Shown here: one piece after another, positions 2,067 to 20,558 of the stretch
Layout of the letters: each line of letters starts with the position of its first letter
How positions within the stretch are numbered: position 1 is the first letter of the stretch
Source: an uncultured Planctomycetia bacterium
Lineage (GTDB): Bacteria; Planctomycetota; Phycisphaerae; FEN-1346; JAACEH01
DNA: 44,699 nucleotides
NCBI GenBank assembly: GCA_903929765.1
Contig: CAIYVX010000074.1
Coordinates: 1-44,699 of the forward strand
Direction of reading: 5' to 3'
Translations under genes and position numbers: made by a program
Notes under the pieces: generated by a model
What the model saw: the letters and a program-made list of their open reading frames with translations, nothing else
Told to the model about the DNA's origin: nothing
Databases searched by the model: none

Positions 2067-4280
2067 ATGTGGACCCACCCGCTCATCCTCGCCGGTCTCG
2101 TGACGCTGGCCCTGCCGGTCGTCATTCACCTGGTGCTGCGCTCGCGGCCGCAACAGGTCACATTTCCATCTCTGCGGTTCGTGACCGAGAGCCACCACGC
2201 CACGGCGGGTCTGGCGCGGCTGAAGCACTATGCGCTCCTCGCCCTGCGTATGGCGGCACTGGCCCTGGTGGTACTCATTCTGGCCCGCCCGATTGACCGG
2301 CCGCAAGCGGCGGTGGCGCTGGCGCGCAAAAGTGCCCCGGCGGCGGTCGTGCTTTGTTTCGACACCGCGCCGCGAATGGATTACCGCGAAATGGGCATCA
2401 CGCGGCTCGACATGGCCCGCCAACTGGCCACGCGGCTGGTCGATCAGTTGCCGCGCAGCAGCCGCCTTGCCGTGCTCACCTCGACCGCGCCGGCGGAAGC
2501 GGCCGGGCTGCGGGCCGACAGCACCACGGCCCAGGACGAAATCAAGGCCGTTTCGACCACCAGGGCCAGCGTCTCGGTGGCCGCGATGCTTCGGACGGCC
2601 GAAGGCCTCCTGGCCCAGGCGCCCGAGGAGCGCCGCGAAATTTATCTCTTCACCGACCTGGCCGCCGGGGCCTGGCGCGGACTCGCCGACGGGGCCTTCC
2701 GCAAATATAACCGCGTGCCGATCTATATCCTCGATGTCGGGCCGGGGGAAAAAGCTGAGAACCTGAATGTCGCCCTCGAACCGCTCCGGCTGTCGTCCGT
2801 CCGTCCCGCCGTCGGTTCCCCCGTGACCATCGCGGCCACAGTCCTCGGCGCCGCCCGGCCAACGAGCCGCACGCTCACCCTCGAAATCGGCAGCGCCGTT
2901 CGCAGTCGCCAGTCGATCGACCTCAAATCGCCCGGAGCCGTGGCCACGGCGACGTTCAATGAAACGTTCGCCGAGCCGGGTTTGGTGCAGGGCAGCGTGT
3001 CGATCCCGGAAGCCGATCCGCTTTTGGCCGACAACACGCGATTCTTCACGCTCCAGGTCGGCCGGCCGACGCCGGTCACGGTGATCCGCACCGAGACGCC
3101 GCCGCCGGGGGTTCTTGATGCCGCGGGACTGGTCGCCCAGGCCCTGGCGCCGCCGTCCAGTGGCATGGGCATCTTGCCCATGAGTCCCACGGGCGTCCCG
3201 CCCGTGGAAAGCAACGGAAACCACGGGCAAGATGCCCGTGCCACTGTAGACACCGTCGTCCCGACGTTTCTGCGAGCCCGCGACCTGAATGCCGACAGGC
3301 TGAAGGGCGTCGATACGGTTTTCCTGGCCGACTCTGCCGGCGTGTCGCCCGAAGGCTGGGCGGCGCTCGAACGGTTCGTCGCCGACGGCGGCGGCCTGAT
3401 CGTCCTGCTCGGCCACAACGTCGAGGCGGAAATCAAGGCCGGCCATTCCTCTTATATAAGCGCTGCGGCCGAGCAACTCCTGGGCGGCGCCATCGGAGCG
3501 GTCCGCGAAGCCGCCGCCGGCGCGCACCTGGCCGTACCGAGTTACAATCTCCCCGCCCTGGCCCTCTTCGACGCCGGCCGCAACGGCGACCTGGCCTTGC
3601 CGCTCATTTATCGCTGGTTCGAGTTGCAGCCCGCCGCAACGAGTTCCGTCCTGATCAAAGTCGGGACCGCACAGCCGGCGCTCGTGGCCGCGCCGCACGG
3701 CACGGGCCGCGTTTACGTCCTGGCCACCGCGCCGGAGTCCGGCTGGTCGAACCTTGCCGGCCAGGCCGAGTTCGTCATTCTCATGCACAGTCTCCTCGCG
3801 GCAGCCGAAGGGCAGGGGGCCGACGCGCCGCCGTTGGCCATCGGCGAACCCGTCACCGTCGCCTTGCCGCGAGGACTCTCCGGCCAGAGCGTTTCGTTGG
3901 TCGGCCCGGGTCTGGCCACGCCGGTGGCCGTGACCGTCAACCCGGCCACGAGTGCTGCCGTCTTTCCGCCTCTGGACCGTCCCGGCAACTTCCAGATTCG
4001 CGTTGGCTCTGACGCTAAACCGCAATTCGGTTTCAGCCTGAACATCGATCCGATTGAGAGCCGCCTGGAAAAGCGGCCGGTCGAAGCGGTCGAGAAGCTT
4101 TTCGCTCCCGGCCTGGCCCGCGTTTCGCCGACGCTCGACGCCCTGCACGCCGGCGAACAGATCGCCCTCGCCGGCACCCACGATTGGTCGGCGGCCCTGG
4201 TGCCGCTCCTGATGCTCGTCTTGGTCGCCGAACTGTTTCTCGCGAACCGCTTTTACCGTCGGTCGGTGGTGAAAAAATGA
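2067..4280 (+). CDS. BatA-domain membrane protein with VWA-like and glutamine-amidotransferase-like regions
   Basis: A 737-residue inner-membrane protein. The N-terminus carries the BatA double-helix anchor: a first membrane segment in WTHPLILAGLVTLALPVVIHLVL and a second around residues 56-75. A VWA-like domain follows from about residue 91, but its metal site is degenerate (DTAPRM instead of DxSxS). A later segment (ALERFVADGGGLIVLLG) resembles the amidotransferase-like fold often found in these proteins. A last membrane helix lies near the C-terminus (LVPLLMLVLVAELFLANRF). It starts 7 bases after the DUF58 stop. Residues about 365-394 (GMGILPM...GQDARAT) come from an in-frame palindromic repeat at 3158-3246. 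Confidence 0.88.
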   Translation: MWTHPLILAGLVTLALPVVIHLVLRSRPQQVTFPSLRFVTESHHATAGLARLKHYALLALRMAALALVVLILARPIDRPQAAVALARKSAPAAVVLCFDTAPRMDYREMGITRLDMARQLATRLVDQLPRSSRLAVLTSTAPAEAAGLRADSTTAQDEIKAVSTTRASVSVAAMLRTAEGLLAQAPEERREIYLFTDLAAGAWRGLADGAFRKYNRVPIYILDVGPGEKAENLNVALEPLRLSSVRPAVGSPVTIAATVLGAARPTSRTLTLEIGSAVRSRQSIDLKSPGAVATATFNETFAEPGLVQGSVSIPEADPLLADNTRFFTLQVGRPTPVTVIRTETPPPGVLDAAGLVAQALAPPSSGMGILPMSPTGVPPVESNGNHGQDARATVDTVVPTFLRARDLNADRLKGVDTVFLADSAGVSPEGWAALERFVADGGGLIVLLGHNVEAEIKAGHSSYISAAAEQLLGGAIGAVREAAAGAHLAVPSYNLPALALFDAGRNGDLALPLIYRWFELQPAATSSVLIKVGTAQPALVAAPHGTGRVYVLATAPESGWSNLAGQAEFVILMHSLLAAAEGQGADAPPLAIGEPVTVALPRGLSGQSVSLVGPGLATPVAVTVNPATSAAVFPPLDRPGNFQIRVGSDAKPQFGFSLNIDPIESRLEKRPVEAVEKLFAPGLARVSPTLDALHAGEQIALAGTHDWSAALVPLLMLVLVAELFLANRFYRRSVVKK
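3158..3246. repeat. Palindromic repeat read in frame within the BatA gene
   Basis: Arms 3158-3179 and 3225-3246 are inverted copies matching at 21 of 22 positions (core gggcatcttgccc / gggcaagatgccc). Between them lies a second palindrome at 3187-3207 (ccacgggc...gcccgtgg). The element translates as GMGILPM...TGVPPV...HGQDARAT, a peptide signature I recognise as recurrent in planctomycete genomes because the repeat lands inside genes. It adds about 30 residues between the VWA-like region and the next domain without breaking the frame. Confidence 0.85.
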
Positions 4281-15009: not shown

Positions 15010-15930
15010 GTGAAGACACACAATGCGGCTGCGGCGGGACGGCGGTCGGGTCTGACTTTGATCGAGGTGCTGGCGACGGTGTTCGTCCTGGGCCTGGGGC
15101 TGATCATGGTCGGCGCGGCCTTTCCGGTCGGCATAGACCAGATGCGCCGGACCAAGGAAGACACCTATGCGGCCGAACTGGCCAGGTCGGCGATGAACAT
15201 GATCCGGGCCCAGTGCGCCCAGGGCTTCGCCCAGTGTGCCACCGCCGGCGGCTCGGGCTTCACCGGTCCGGGCTTTGGCTCTTCGACCCCGTTTCCGATG
15301 GCCGACATGTCGTTCGCGGCCGGCTCCGGCACATCTGGCCAGTATACTGGTATGGCCGTTTGCGACCCGACGGCGGCCTTCGGGGCCCTGCAGCAGGATC
15401 TGGTCAGCAATCCGAACGTTCTGGCCTATGGTCAGGGCGGCAACACCTTATATAACCCAGCTAACGTAATAGCCGGCTCCACGGTCGCCAACAACACGCT
15501 GGTTTGCATTCCTGTGCTGACGCGCATGGCTTCGCCTCTGGGGAGCGGCCGGGTCGAGGGCGCCGGCGTGCCGCTCTTCCGCGTCACCCTCGTCGTGGTC
15601 AAGAAAACGGGGCAAACGGGCGCCAACGGCGCCCCGATGCCGCTCTTCGCCAAGGGGACCGCTTCGGGCACAGGCGTTATTTCGGTGGCCGGAACTATGC
15701 CCGACGGCAGCCAGATGGCCCAGAGCGTCAACGTTGACGACGGCGTGCTGATTTCCTACGGCTCCCCGGCCTCCGGCGATGTTCGGACCGGGTATGTTTA
15801 CCGCGTCGTGGACAACCAGGGCGGCGGCAACCTGATCCTGGACGACAATCCGGGGCTGTCGGGCAGCAGCAGTGATTGCCTGGTCTTTTTTAATTTCGTG
15901 ACGGCCTATTACGCCTATATCGGCGGCTGA
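15010..15930 (+). CDS. Type IV pilin-like/pseudopilin (GspI/PilV-like)
   Basis: A 306-residue protein with a prepilin leader ending at G14, followed by LTLIEVLATVFVLGLGLIMVGAAF; E19 is the conserved +5 glutamate of the mature chain and the next 20 residues are the hydrophobic assembly helix. Prepilin peptidase would cleave after G14. The rest is a Gly/Ser/Ala-rich globular part with beta strands (LFRVTLVVVKKTG). I take the GTG at 15010 since agaggagag lies just upstream; longer in-frame starts lack one. It is first in a three-gene set resembling minor pseudopilins I, J and K. No assembly ATPase or platform gene is in the window. Confidence 0.85.
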   Translation: MKTHNAAAAGRRSGLTLIEVLATVFVLGLGLIMVGAAFPVGIDQMRRTKEDTYAAELARSAMNMIRAQCAQGFAQCATAGGSGFTGPGFGSSTPFPMADMSFAAGSGTSGQYTGMAVCDPTAAFGALQQDLVSNPNVLAYGQGGNTLYNPANVIAGSTVANNTLVCIPVLTRMASPLGSGRVEGAGVPLFRVTLVVVKKTGQTGANGAPMPLFAKGTASGTGVISVAGTMPDGSQMAQSVNVDDGVLISYGSPASGDVRTGYVYRVVDNQGGGNLILDDNPGLSGSSSDCLVFFNFVTAYYAYIGG

Positions 15931-15964
15931 CGACGCCGGCCGGCGCAAGGCAAGCGAGGAGTCG

Positions 15965-17392
15965 ATGATGACCAGAAACGGCACGAAAAATGTGGCACAA
16001 CCGCCCACGGCTGTGCGGTCTTCGGCTCTTGGCTCGTTTTCACGCCCGAGGGCGGGCGTGCCACATAGCGGCTTCACGCTGATCGAGGTTCTGACGGCCG
16101 TGGCCCTGACCGCCGGGCTGATGCTGGGCGTGATCGAGATTTTCAAGATGTCGACCGACTCCGCCTCCCAGACCGAACAGGCCTCCGACGCCTTCGAGAT
16201 GGGGCGCGGCGTCATGGCCCAGCTCGAGAGCGACACGTCCATGTTTGCTCCGGAAGGCTACCTGTCGAACTCAGCCTGTATGTTGGGTTCCTACAGGTTC
16301 GACAATCTGGCGTTCTCCGTGGCCCTGGCGGCGCCGACCTCGGCCGGGCTTTCTTATTACAACGGGAGTGCGGCGGCCCAGAGGACCGACCCGATAAATT
16401 CCGCCAATCTTATGGCCGCCGGCGGACAGGTGGTTTACACCATCGGCGGTCGGTGGCAAACGTTCCCCGCAAGCAGCATCACCAAAAGCGGCTGGTACGT
16501 GGGGACGAGGAACGATAGCGACCCGCGCGGTGCGGTCTTGGTCCGCAAATTTTACAACAATCGGAGTTCCTTCCCAAGCAGCACCACATACAACAAGATC
16601 TTTCTGGGGCAGGGCCTGGGGGGGACGGGCGGGGCGCCGTTGATCTACTCAGGTATTTCCAACGGCACGGCGCTGGTCCAGAACACATCCATGATCCAGG
16701 CGGCTACGGAGTATCTGACCACGACCTTTAATAACTTGAACTGGCTCAATACTCCGATCTACCGCCTCGCCACGGTGAATCCAACCTCGGTGCCCGTCTT
16801 ATTCTCTGGCACCTCTGTCTCCTCCGTGCCGTTCAATCCTATAGCGCCGGTCATCAACGTCCCCGATCCGTCCGCTCCTTATACGCCACCGACCGCTCAG
16901 ACCAACCTGGACGAGCGCGACAACGTCGTCTGCGATCGGGTCAGCGAGTTTTTCGTCGAGGTCTGGAACGGCTCGTTCTGGGCGCCGCAAATGACCATCA
17001 ACAACGGTGCTCTATACCTCACCCCGTACACCTTTAACGGGGCCGGTACCCCGACGCCGTACTGCATCACGACCGGTGGCCCGATTCCAGGCAGCGCCGG
17101 AGGTTCCTGGGGAACGGGTACGACGAACGTGGCCTCCTTCCAGGGCGGCAACATGCTCTGGCTCGGCACGGCCGCCAATCCTCTCAACCGTTATGCCCTG
17201 ACGGGACTGTCCACCACGGCGATCAGTTTGCCGCCGGCGACTACGCCGAGCATGATTCGCGTCACCCTGGTCGTTCACCCGCACGCCGACACGACGCCCC
17301 TGGCCAGTGAGCCGTACTTCGCCGCCGGCGTGAGTCGCTATCAGGGCGTGGTCTTCCGCGAAATCTTCAAATTGTCGGGGACGGTTCATTAG
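15965..17392 (+). CDS. Prepilin-type protein (GspJ/PilW-like) with repeat-extended leader
   Basis: A 475-residue protein. The prepilin cleavage site is G36-F37 in HSGFTLIEVLTAVALTAGLMLGVIEIF, with E41 as the +5 glutamate. The 36-residue leader is long for the class: residues about 10-34 (VAQPPTAV...RAGVPH) are encoded by a palindromic repeat (15991-16065). The C-terminal part is long and beta-rich, ending in MIRVTLVVHPHAD...GVVFREIFKL, typical of GspJ/PilW-like proteins. Gcgaggagtcg precedes ATGATG at 15965, so either ATG may be used. It starts 34 bases after gene one. Predicted to join a pseudopilus tip. Confidence 0.85.
   Translation: MMTRNGTKNVAQPPTAVRSSALGSFSRPRAGVPHSGFTLIEVLTAVALTAGLMLGVIEIFKMSTDSASQTEQASDAFEMGRGVMAQLESDTSMFAPEGYLSNSACMLGSYRFDNLAFSVALAAPTSAGLSYYNGSAAAQRTDPINSANLMAAGGQVVYTIGGRWQTFPASSITKSGWYVGTRNDSDPRGAVLVRKFYNNRSSFPSSTTYNKIFLGQGLGGTGGAPLIYSGISNGTALVQNTSMIQAATEYLTTTFNNLNWLNTPIYRLATVNPTSVPVLFSGTSVSSVPFNPIAPVINVPDPSAPYTPPTAQTNLDERDNVVCDRVSEFFVEVWNGSFWAPQMTINNGALYLTPYTFNGAGTPTPYCITTGGPIPGSAGGSWGTGTTNVASFQGGNMLWLGTAANPLNRYALTGLSTTAISLPPATTPSMIRVTLVVHPHADTTPLASEPYFAAGVSRYQGVVFREIFKLSGTVH
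15991..16065. repeat. Palindromic repeat read as prepilin leader
   Basis: The ends tgtggcac (15991-15998) and gtgccaca (16058-16065) are perfect inverted copies; inside are cgcccacgg near 16002 and cgcccgagggcgggcg at 16043-16058. The in-frame translation AQPPTAV...RAGVPH is a repeat-derived peptide signature seen in planctomycete proteins. It sits between the start codon and the prepilin cleavage site, so the insert would be removed with the leader. Confidence 0.75.
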
Positions 17393-17411: not shown

Positions 17412-20400
17412 ATGAAACATTACAACCGTTTTGGCGGCACGACGCTGGTCATCACCCTGGCCCTGTTGGCGGCCCTGGCCATTATCGGCACGACGATGAT
17501 CAGCATGGCTCGCATGGACCGTTTTGCCGCCCGCAGCTACCGGCTCAACACGCAGATGGACCTGGCGGCCGACGCGGCCCTGGAATGGTTCGGGGCCCGC
17601 TGGGCCGAGGCCTACTGGGCCCGGGAAACGCCGGCCTATCCCAATGGGTCCAATACCGCCAAGCCGGTCGCCCAGCCCCCGCTCTGGAACAGCTACGATA
17701 TCTATCTGCCGGGGGGCGGCCTGGCCTCGCGCGGCGATTCGCCCTACGACGACGATTCGCTCATCTCGCTCCTGCTACCAAGCGGCGCGTCTCCTCTCGT
17801 CAGTCCCGTGGCCCGCGTCGGCAACACTTCTAACACCTATTATAAGATTACCACCACGGCCCAGACGACCAACGTGCCCACCACCTCCTGGCCGATTTCC
17901 CCCGCTGGCCAAACAGATGGGTATATCTATCCAGAGTTGCGCTTCCCCGCCGGGCCGAACCGGAACGTCGAGGTCAGCCTGACGGCGGTCGATCTGTGCG
18001 CGCGGCTCAACGTCAACTACACCGGGTCGTTATCGTCGCTGAACAACGCCACTTGCACCGCGTGGCACGGGGCCTCGCTTCAGGAGGTGACGCCGCCGAA
18101 TGGCCTGGCGCCTTTTGCCACCGGTCCCGCCAACGCGGTCATCGCTTTCGCCGGGCTTAGTAACATTGTTGGAGGCAGCGGCGTCCTCGGTCGCTGTGGC
18201 ACCGTCGGGGTCGGGGTCGGGGCCGCAGCCACCGCCCAAACCGAGTTGGTTGACGGCACGATGAATCAGTTCGCGCCAGGAATCTATGCCTCAGGGGCTG
18301 GCTCCACGAATGCGCCGGGTGTGAATGTGGCGGGCACCCACCCGCTCCCCTTCAGCCTCGAAGATCTCTCCGAACTGCTGAACATCCCCGGCAACACCGG
18401 GGCCTCCTCGACCCTGGGGACGTTCATGTCACGCCTGGGAGTCCATGATACCATTGACCTGTCCGCCAAGACGACCCACCCGCTCAATCGCACTTTTGTC
18501 ACCACCCACAGTTGGACCAGCGCCGCCCGGCGGTACTACTTTAAAGCTGGCGATGCGGCCAGCGAGACCGTGGCCGGCCTCGGCGACCTGCACGTCAAGG
18601 CCGACCTGAACAACGCGCCGCAAGCGGACCTGGAAAAAGCTTTGCTGGCCACACGCATGTTCAATACCTCGAACACCACCGACATGTGCGTCCTGGAACA
18701 GATCGTCGCCAACATCATCGATTATCGCCGAGAAATTTACAAGGCCAGCTACCCCAATCACAGTGGGCCTGCCGGTTACGCGGGCCATCCGACGGAAGTG
18801 ACCGGTAAGAAGTTAAACGGCATTAACACGGGCGGCGTGAAGATCTACGGCAACCAGCGGCAGCCGTATATCAACGAAGTCTACATGATCAGAAATACGA
18901 ATGCTATTGCCCCTTATGGCGCCGGAATTGACCCTTCAAAACCGAGTAATTACCTATATAGCGTTTATATCTCATTAGCCAATCCCTATGACCAGCAACT
19001 GCTCAAAACGGTTTCCTTCACACAAATTACAATTGGAGCGGGTGCTAACATGATTACAATCACGCCCAATGGTCCCATCCCGATGTCACCCGGCCCCGGC
19101 CAGGCCGGCGGTGACGTGATCGGAACCGTGATCAGCACGCCCAGCACCCTCCCCCAAACTGAATTAGGGATAGGTTCTTATCTTGAGCCGGTCTGTCTCT
19201 ACAACAAGGGCACGGACGGAGCTACGATCATGATCGACCGTATGCAGATGTGTTTTCCGACAGATCCGACGCAGAAGGCCAGCCAAACTTCGATGCAGCG
19301 GCCGACATACGCGGGAACATATCACAACGGAACCACAAATCAAAGATTCTTCGGCGGCTACATGGAAGGACCGAATTACGACCAGTTGTTGACTCCCGCG
19401 ATGACTGGTTTGACCCTTAATTTGCCAGGTCCGGCAGGCACTCTCAAAGATCCGGCCGGCACTTTTGCTCCAGCTCAACTGGCCACCGGGGCCAACGCCA
19501 ACTACCTCGTCCGACCCATTGAGAATCGCGGCCGCACCTGGTATTTGGGCCCAGACACCCCGGTGCGTACCCGGGCTTGCTATCAGCCGTGGCTCACCAG
19601 CAGCGGGAATTCGAGTACCATCCCTGATTTGTCCTTCGCCAGTCCCGGCGATCTCTGCCGCCTGCTGATCATCGGCCCGCAGCCCACCACCATCGGCGGC
19701 CCGGCCGCTTCTTTTGGTTATAACACATCTGGAGTGCTCGCGATGACCGCCTCCACCGTGACCGAGCAGTTGGGGGCGTATGCGCCGGGGGGCGCCATCG
19801 ACGAATGCGACATGCACATCGACCTCGCCAAGATTTCCGCGAAGACCTCGACCGGCGCCGGGGCCGGCATCTCGGCGGCCTATGACTGGCGGCGGCTGCT
19901 CGACGTGTTCAACGTCAACAGTCCCTATTACGACGGGCTGGACAACAGCGGTCGCGGGCAGGTGGTCGATAATCAGGGCACTAACGCCGTGCTGTCGAAT
20001 TCGCTTGTGGCCGAAGTCGGCGAATTGTACGAACATGGGCGGATCAACCTGTTGACCGCGCCGTCGCAGGTCGTTCAGGCCATGTTTGCGCCATTGGCTT
20101 ATGTCGCCCCGGCGACCGGCGACACGCTGCTCGCTTCGGTCCCGACTTGGGCCACCGCCATTGCGAACAAACGTGCCGGCGTCACCAGCGGCGTACCCTG
20201 GAAGTCGCCGGCGGACATACTGGATCTCGCCAACGCGCAGACGATCTTCACCGCTAAAACTTGCGACGACGACGGCAACGGGGCCTTTAAGGATTACGCC
20301 AAGAGATGCTGGCTCTACAACTACATCAGCAACTGGGCGACGATCCGCAGCGACTGCTGCGCCGTTTACGGCACCGTCCGGTTGAACGACACGAGCGTCG

Positions 20401-20558
20401 CTGGCAGTTCGCAGATTATGGGCCTGCGGCACTTCGTGGCCGTGATGGATCGCGTCCCGGCCACGGCCTACCAGCCGATCATACCTTCCGGGGGGCTAGT
20501 GAAGCCCAACCCGAACTACCAGCCGCCGCGGCGGCTGCTGTTGACCTGGTTGGATTAA
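17412..20558 (+). CDS. Large GspK/PilX-like pseudopilin
   Basis: A 1048-residue protein with an N-terminal hydrophobic helix (FGGTTLVITLALLAALAIIGTTMISM) lacking the +5 glutamate, as in GspK. A motif like the GspK 'LNTAP' is present as DLNNAPQADLEKALLATRMF, followed by IVANIIDYRRE, typical of the saposin-like insert. The length is about three times that of classical GspK (about 330 residues), with long Gly/Thr/Asn-rich regions. It follows the second pilin gene by 19 bases with an AT-rich spacer (agaggttaaaaaa), so these three form one operon. It would cap the pseudopilus tip if the triad works as in type II secretion; this is inference. Confidence 0.82.
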   Translation: MKHYNRFGGTTLVITLALLAALAIIGTTMISMARMDRFAARSYRLNTQMDLAADAALEWFGARWAEAYWARETPAYPNGSNTAKPVAQPPLWNSYDIYLPGGGLASRGDSPYDDDSLISLLLPSGASPLVSPVARVGNTSNTYYKITTTAQTTNVPTTSWPISPAGQTDGYIYPELRFPAGPNRNVEVSLTAVDLCARLNVNYTGSLSSLNNATCTAWHGASLQEVTPPNGLAPFATGPANAVIAFAGLSNIVGGSGVLGRCGTVGVGVGAAATAQTELVDGTMNQFAPGIYASGAGSTNAPGVNVAGTHPLPFSLEDLSELLNIPGNTGASSTLGTFMSRLGVHDTIDLSAKTTHPLNRTFVTTHSWTSAARRYYFKAGDAASETVAGLGDLHVKADLNNAPQADLEKALLATRMFNTSNTTDMCVLEQIVANIIDYRREIYKASYPNHSGPAGYAGHPTEVTGKKLNGINTGGVKIYGNQRQPYINEVYMIRNTNAIAPYGAGIDPSKPSNYLYSVYISLANPYDQQLLKTVSFTQITIGAGANMITITPNGPIPMSPGPGQAGGDVIGTVISTPSTLPQTELGIGSYLEPVCLYNKGTDGATIMIDRMQMCFPTDPTQKASQTSMQRPTYAGTYHNGTTNQRFFGGYMEGPNYDQLLTPAMTGLTLNLPGPAGTLKDPAGTFAPAQLATGANANYLVRPIENRGRTWYLGPDTPVRTRACYQPWLTSSGNSSTIPDLSFASPGDLCRLLIIGPQPTTIGGPAASFGYNTSGVLAMTASTVTEQLGAYAPGGAIDECDMHIDLAKISAKTSTGAGAGISAAYDWRRLLDVFNVNSPYYDGLDNSGRGQVVDNQGTNAVLSNSLVAEVGELYEHGRINLLTAPSQVVQAMFAPLAYVAPATGDTLLASVPTWATAIANKRAGVTSGVPWKSPADILDLANAQTIFTAKTCDDDGNGAFKDYAKRCWLYNYISNWATIRSDCCAVYGTVRLNDTSVAGSSQIMGLRHFVAVMDRVPATAYQPIIPSGGLVKPNPNYQPPRRLLLTWLD

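Follow-up and report, generated by a model that had tools for sequence, protein, structure and literature searches.

The window that we analysed (44,699 nucleotides of contig CAIYVX010000074.1, from an uncultured Planctomycetia bacterium) contains a plus-strand gene (15965–17392) for a 475-residue minor prepilin that resembles GspJ and the Verru_Chthon cassette C proteins. The N-terminus of this protein reads MMTRNGTKN-VAQPPTAVRSSALGSFSRPRAGVPH-SG/FTLIE, in which the slash marks the predicted prepilin peptidase site between Gly (16070–16072) and Phe of the SG/FTLIE stretch (16067–16087, plus strand). TIGR02532 matched residues 35–56 with 19.0 bits (cut-off 16.3), which identifies the GFxxxE cleavage and methylation motif of type IV prepilin-like proteins; the gspJ, PilV, and TIGR02599 matches were below their respective cut-offs, and the Pfam N_methyl score (17.6) was under its cut-off of 21.2. 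The gene lies between that of a PilV-like prepilin directly upstream (15010–15930, plus strand; TIGR02523, 24.4 bits, below the cut-off of 52.2), the leader of which, VKTHNAAAAGRRSG/LTLIE, has no repeat, and that of a GspK-like protein directly downstream (17412–20558, plus strand; NF037980, 17.8 bits, below the cut-off of 130). The PilV-like and GspK-like labels are the best, sub-threshold NCBIfam matches. Polysaccharide-export and exosortase genes are located downstream of the three genes.

The prepilin leader comprises 36 residues from the first ATG, including the Gly at position −1, as a preliminary description of this DNA had counted, and 35 residues from the second ATG (15968), which is better spaced from the Shine-Dalgarno-like AGGAG (15957–15961, plus strand) than the first. 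The leader is hydrophilic, with five Arg/Lys and no Asp/Glu. An in-frame insert of 25 codons (15992–16066, plus strand) separates the codons for MMTRNGTKN (15965–15991, plus strand) from those for SG, and the leader minus this repeat is MMTRNGTKN-SG, 11 residues in length. The preliminary description had assigned about 25 residues to a repeat at 15991–16065 that ends right before the GFTLIE site; the codon number holds, whereas the true insert (VAQ...VPH) starts one base later and is separated from the Gly by one Ser codon.

The insert is composed of a REPIN-like element (15992–16064), in which two inverted GTGG-tagged REPs surround a spacer, and a following AT. Measured from GTGG to CCAC, the element itself has 73 nt, or 75 nt with the AT, and AT also precedes it. 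The left REP (15992–16016, plus strand) consists of the GTGG tag and an imperfect hairpin, GCACAACCGCCCACGGCTGTGC; the spacer occupies 16017–16040 (plus strand); and the right REP (16041–16064) is inverted and reads GTGGCACGCCCGCCCTCGGGCGTG on the minus strand. The inverted arms (15990–16015 and 16041–16066) are 26 nt long, 81% complementary, and 25 nt apart, so that the REP pair makes one long hairpin, and each arm is itself a hairpin, the right one (16041–16060) with 8 perfect pairs. The predicted folding energy of the repeat stretch is −41.8 kcal/mol compared with a shuffle mean of −31.9 kcal/mol (z −3.3), and none of 200 shuffles folded as well. The conserved tag beside the hairpin, found in both arms and in the genomic copies, reads GTGG, whereas the large super-family has GTAG.

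The same repeat is dispersed in the genome of its host (3.83 Mb in 116 contigs). A BLAST search with the 108 bases from the window hit four other places (best at C38:7696, E 5.9e-11), and the repeat is therefore not a chance palindrome; arms, folding, and copies together confirm the repeat with inverted ends that had been described. A covariance model, R1, built from six copies including that of the window, recovered seven complete copies (the six building copies and one on contig C67) and one that is truncated where contig C111 ends. The six complete copies besides the window's are located on C38, C6, C67, C46, C83, and C89, and single REPs are located on C1, C13, C72, C96, and C115, which makes a dispersed multi-copy family of singlets and dimers. 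A one-mismatch pattern gave 101 matches in the same genome compared with 144 for its control and is by itself no evidence. According to ORF and GC3 heuristics, the copies are mostly intergenic; those in frame within ORFs are the window's, C13, and C72. The C13 ORF encodes leucyl-tRNA synthetase (leuS_bact, 919 bits, cut-off 548) and carries a single REP in frame, which extends the protein at a position that is a short loop in the solved enzyme matching it best; for the C72 ORF, NCBIfam gave no match at 1e-10. Judged by their sequences, the prepilin and the synthetase thus appear to be functional genes with in-frame REPs. At two places, C6:17524 (L004) and C67:35031 (L005), the REPIN is nested in a bigger inverted repeat, ACTCTAACAAAACC...GTTTTGTTAGAGTTCC, and these could possibly be a composite MITE.

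Matches to the prepilin were found in 44 of the 198 relatives searched, own genome included, and most of them begin at residues 20–36, that is to say, near the cleavage site. In the nearest relative (G001), a member of the same family, the order of the three genes is conserved (BLASTP E 1e-25, 1e-26, and 2e-17), and the syntenic prepilin has an ordinary leader of 15 residues, MKTANGQGVARRCRP/AFTLVE, without the repeat. The preliminary description took a peptide shared by all orthologues as evidence against its reading, and this relative does not share it. No empty site was found for the window prepilin gene itself, the nearest relative of which is only about 27–42% identical. The description of the leader as longer than usual holds against two prepilin samples and not against the homologues. 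With heuristic starts, (i) 26 prepilins sampled regardless of REPs had a median leader of 9.5 residues and none of at least 34; (ii) 25 prepilins of REP-rich genomes had a median of 11 and likewise none of at least 34; and (iii) 4 of 18 homologues had leaders of at least 34 residues, one of the four being a REP case (L068, described below). For type IV pilins in general, the accessible part of one source gives leaders of 6–51 residues (PMC6916266). In another genome (G012), a prepilin leader (L062) is made of other repeats, PVAISRGYPVAISRGYPVAMR/GFTLTE.

Other prepilins with the same repeat in the leader, which the preliminary description had proposed to look for, do exist: two occur in one Phycisphaerales MAG (G134). 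The first, L068, was met by chance among the homologues and reads HSRGRLCHS/GFTLVE, coded by the REP family of the window. When contigs were scanned for the window REP no more than 30 nt ahead of a prepilin motif, four stretches emerged, two of which come from one Phycisphaerales MAG, fen_1343, which we take as G134; one of these shows the L068 sequence, and the other holds the whole dimer, MIAQRARCGTAALGCAGRRRFSTWEKHSRGRLCHTG/GFTLIE, preceded by a strong Shine-Dalgarno sequence, GGAGG. As G134 falls in the class of the window, this DNA most probably derives from the class Phycisphaerae of the Planctomycetota. The third stretch (L074, from a Verrucomicrobia MAG), a possible REP case, combines a REP-like arm with SAFGIRHSAF repeats in the leader SAFGIRHSAFTLIE. 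The fourth (L075) has no palindrome and looks like chance. G134 has 52 arms at up to 2 mismatches, and several arms are in frame in other ORFs among the 30 loci read. Three G134 loci (L111, L120, and L127) have REP dimers or singles where domains meet: one separates AhbA from AhbB in a heme-pathway ORF, one separates the membrane part of an ABC transporter from its ATPase part, and one precedes a FemAB domain. Such repeats may join adjacent genes, or they may sit in linkers.

The strict arm of the window REP family occurs in 27 of 397 genomes of the class, with 775 arms (hand-summed), and the control pattern gave none. A looser pattern, GTGCCAC at most 30 nt before the motif, was found at 31 places in 29 of the same 397 genomes; this set, 30 places of which have a locus, was picked by its tag and so shows recurrence, not frequency. 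A hairpin with a score of at least 8 ends at GTGCCAC in 9 of the 30 loci compared with none of 120 control positions taken from the mature part, and 5 loci are complete dimers with both tags. Palindromes of other sequence are found at L138 (MRLRNETTRPVAQVFNLCTRHSLQSCATRLRN/AFTFVE), L131 (HGRDARAT), L144, L148, and an orthologous set in genus g37. At L148, which is one of the nine hairpin loci, no in-frame start codon was seen, and the contig begins just upstream. Comparison of these leaders indicates that REP insertion before the prepilin cleavage site happened independently several times, with the same and with other, putative REP families.

Genus g37 provides a natural comparison of an empty and a filled site, for a different GTGG-tagged REP dimer than the window copy and in another genus. 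The orthologue is present in all four genomes examined. In G158, the site is empty: ATGAAAAGGAGCACCTTACATTCGGTTCGA is followed by the motif, and the leader is MKRSTLHSVR/GFTLVE. In G146, the site is filled by 57 nt, 19 codons in frame, and the leader reads MKDGTLHSIR-GWHRFVTCVRHTGCKPVPR/GFTLVE. These 57 nt are composed of a 53-nt dimer, GTGGCAC...GTGCCAC, and GAGG, which is present on both sides. G045 and G164 carry the dimer too, with an altered left arm in G164, and the repeat has been kept in frame through the divergence of the carriers. Because the mature proteins are 61–71% identical among carriers compared with 56–58% between carriers and G158, these four genomes, taken by themselves, are more simply explained by an insertion in an ancestor of the carriers. 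Between G045 and G164 (L247 and L248), mature codons 1–38 have 4 first-position differences and none at second or third positions, an odd pattern for mature proteins that are only 66% identical as a whole, and perhaps the result of an exchange.

The idea that the leader is a REP hot spot as a general rule was rejected: seven REP-rich genomes hold 649 arms and 232 prepilin motif sites, and none of the arms is at a motif. Across the 397 class genomes, exact arms at most 30 nt upstream of a prepilin motif were observed twice, both in G134, compared with about 0.08 expected. This expectation is our own arithmetic from 775 arms and 1125 motif sites in 39 genomes (hand-summed) at a genome size of about 4.2 Mb; the excess is weaker still if REPs avoid coding DNA, and both genomes with leader cases came to notice because of those cases. 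Hairpins with a score of at least 8 were found in the leaders of 0 of 26 unselected prepilins, 0 of 25 prepilins of REP-rich genomes, and 2 of 18 homologues. The leader looks permissive and rarely used.

We therefore consider it very probable that 15992–16064 is a non-autonomous mobile REPIN-like palindrome that inserted in frame in the leader of the GspJ-like prepilin and is tolerated because it is removed there. A mobilising enzyme would have placed the dimer between a short leader (approximately MTRNGTKN-SG) and the cleavage site. The mRNA, presumably translated from the original ATG, would be read through the repeat into a hydrophilic leader of 35–36 residues. Cleavage after Gly is established for type IV pilins, according to the open portion of PMC6916266. 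Because the peptidase should likewise cut after Gly(−1) here, the 25 residues of the repeat would be lost and the mature pseudopilin left unchanged, which would make the insertion neutral. The insertion could persist since it is tolerated in the leader and since the repeat, read in this frame, contains no stop codon. The suggestion of a mobile repeat in a harmless landing place, made in the preliminary description, is thus well supported by the dispersed copies, the repeat-free syntenic relative, the independent insertions, and the empty site in g37; its other suggestion, a tool to tune processing, found no support. A broader reading, which we hold only tentatively and regard as rather unlikely, is that cleaved leaders are a recurrent refuge for coding REPs in the class, where the mature protein would bear no cost; some copies, such as that of the window with its spacer that can pair with the Shine-Dalgarno region, may then have been recruited for translation control. 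If so, the host peptidase would strip the repeat peptide from every product.

Alternatively, translation may start at an in-frame GTG (16058–16060, plus strand), which would give the 5-residue leader MPHSG before FTLIE, the rest being untranslated and the palindrome having replaced the old start region. This GTG sits inside the right arm of the repeat and is a candidate for the downstream start that the preliminary description had named as counting against its reading. It has GAGG 7 bases before it, leaders of 4–6 residues are present in the prepilin samples, three g37 carrier species have a similar GTG at the end of the repeat, and Di Nocera and co-workers considered, in the accessible text of PMC3733652, that N-terminal REPs may be harmless, or extragenic through misannotation. 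However, a better signal lies upstream, with AGGAG, an ATG 6 bases on, the right frame, and no stop; the two G134 cases have no in-frame ATG, GTG, or TTG after the repeat; and in g37 the ATG and its GAGG are common to the carriers and the repeat-free species, with the frame kept in three carriers without an indel. We regard a start at the GTG as improbable.

We give still less credence to a use of the insert in translation control, in which its hairpin or its spacer would act on the prepilin gene, for instance by masking the Shine-Dalgarno sequence. The predicted pairing of the spacer (16017–16040) with the Shine-Dalgarno region (15945–15975) has an energy of −27.1 kcal/mol, which was equalled by 17 of 2000 spacer shuffles and, among 2128 26-mers from the window, by one, and AGGAG is predicted to be almost wholly paired with the element and less so without it. 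By contrast, the whole 128-nt stretch has only a slight folding advantage over its shuffles (z −1.94, 9 of 200), and the cover does not recur: the REPIN leader L158 has 4 of 5 Shine-Dalgarno bases open, and coverage in L249, the empty-site gene, is similar to that in its carriers. The predicted pairing was one test among many, and we treat it as a curiosity. A search of Rfam gave nothing above the gathering scores. That the 25 residues alter insertion or cutting of the prepilin and are kept for that is scarcely credible: the insert is directly before the cleavage site, and its leader is net positive like ordinary leaders, but the peptides found at this place come from unrelated REP families read in different frames and are themselves unrelated, the syntenic relative G001 has no insert, and both the left arm and the leader have drifted among the species of g37.

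An insertion of a mobile REPIN-like element, which we prefer, would involve a mobilising enzyme. No Y1 transposase with the window REP nearby was found among 35 Y1_Tnp loci, which are part of 80 matches listed over nine genomes; with two REP forms at up to 3 mismatches, matches occurred at 2 loci, approximately 1.1–1.3 kb from the gene, and 33 were without. The window itself contains a Y1 transposase gene at the contig edge (267–728), which NCBIfam classifies as IS200/IS605-type (NF033573, 62.4 bits over 55); it is at most a possible RAYT. Two further Y1_Tnp genes are located at contig ends, on C82 and C84.

Palindromes in frame in many unrelated genes were reportedly described by Ogata in 2000 and 2002 as Rickettsia palindromic elements (RPEs). 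We liken RPEs to the window repeat by description only, as in-frame palindromes; they belong to another lineage and are approximately 150 bp long, as stated in the available part of PMC10969869. According to the open parts of PMC3116915 and PMC3733652, REPINs and REP (BIME-like) elements are mobilised by RAYT transposases, and the REP groups given for P. fluorescens SBW25 include one that starts with GTGG (PMC3116915). The window family resembles these elements in its inverted doublets, tag beside a hairpin, genome-wide dispersal, and mixture of singlets and dimers, and differs in that no RAYT with the window REP nearby was found (35 loci) and the window copy is part of a coding frame, within a leader whose removal is predicted. 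The accessible text of PMC3733652, from Di Nocera's group, describes REPs and dimers inside genes, coding for 20–30 residues and most numerous in Opitutus terrae and Rickettsia conorii. Those intragenic REPs, in Opitutus terrae, Thauera, Rickettsia, and others, are likewise in-ORF dimers; they occur in proteins unrelated to one another and include cases from the PVC group, whereas that part of the paper names no prepilin or cleaved leader. The window leader also agrees with class III signal peptides of type IV pilins as the open portion of PMC6916266 presents them, that is, a hydrophilic leader ending in Gly and then a hydrophobic stretch with Glu, with 35–36 residues within the range given above, except that most of it is derived from a repeat.

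Intragenic REP dimers, PVC group included, are thus already published, and the recurrent place in a cleaved leader seems new, because the open part of the literature, under the terms used, yielded no account of REPs within prepilin leaders. The examples together present, repeatedly and with an empty site in one genus, a protein-coding mobile repeat that ordinary maturation is predicted to remove from the final protein. For annotation of these genomes, peptides such as VAQPPTAV, HSRGRLCH, GTAAPGCA, and similar ones are to be taken as repeat sequence, not conserved domains. Leaders and linkers are places for measuring the tolerance of coding repeats. A second in-frame GTGG-tagged inverted pair, of another REP family, is located in the window at 3158–3246, within a 737-aa ORF (2067–4280); its 25-nt arms are 92% complementary, and it codes for SGMGILPMSPTGVPPV...HGQDARAT.
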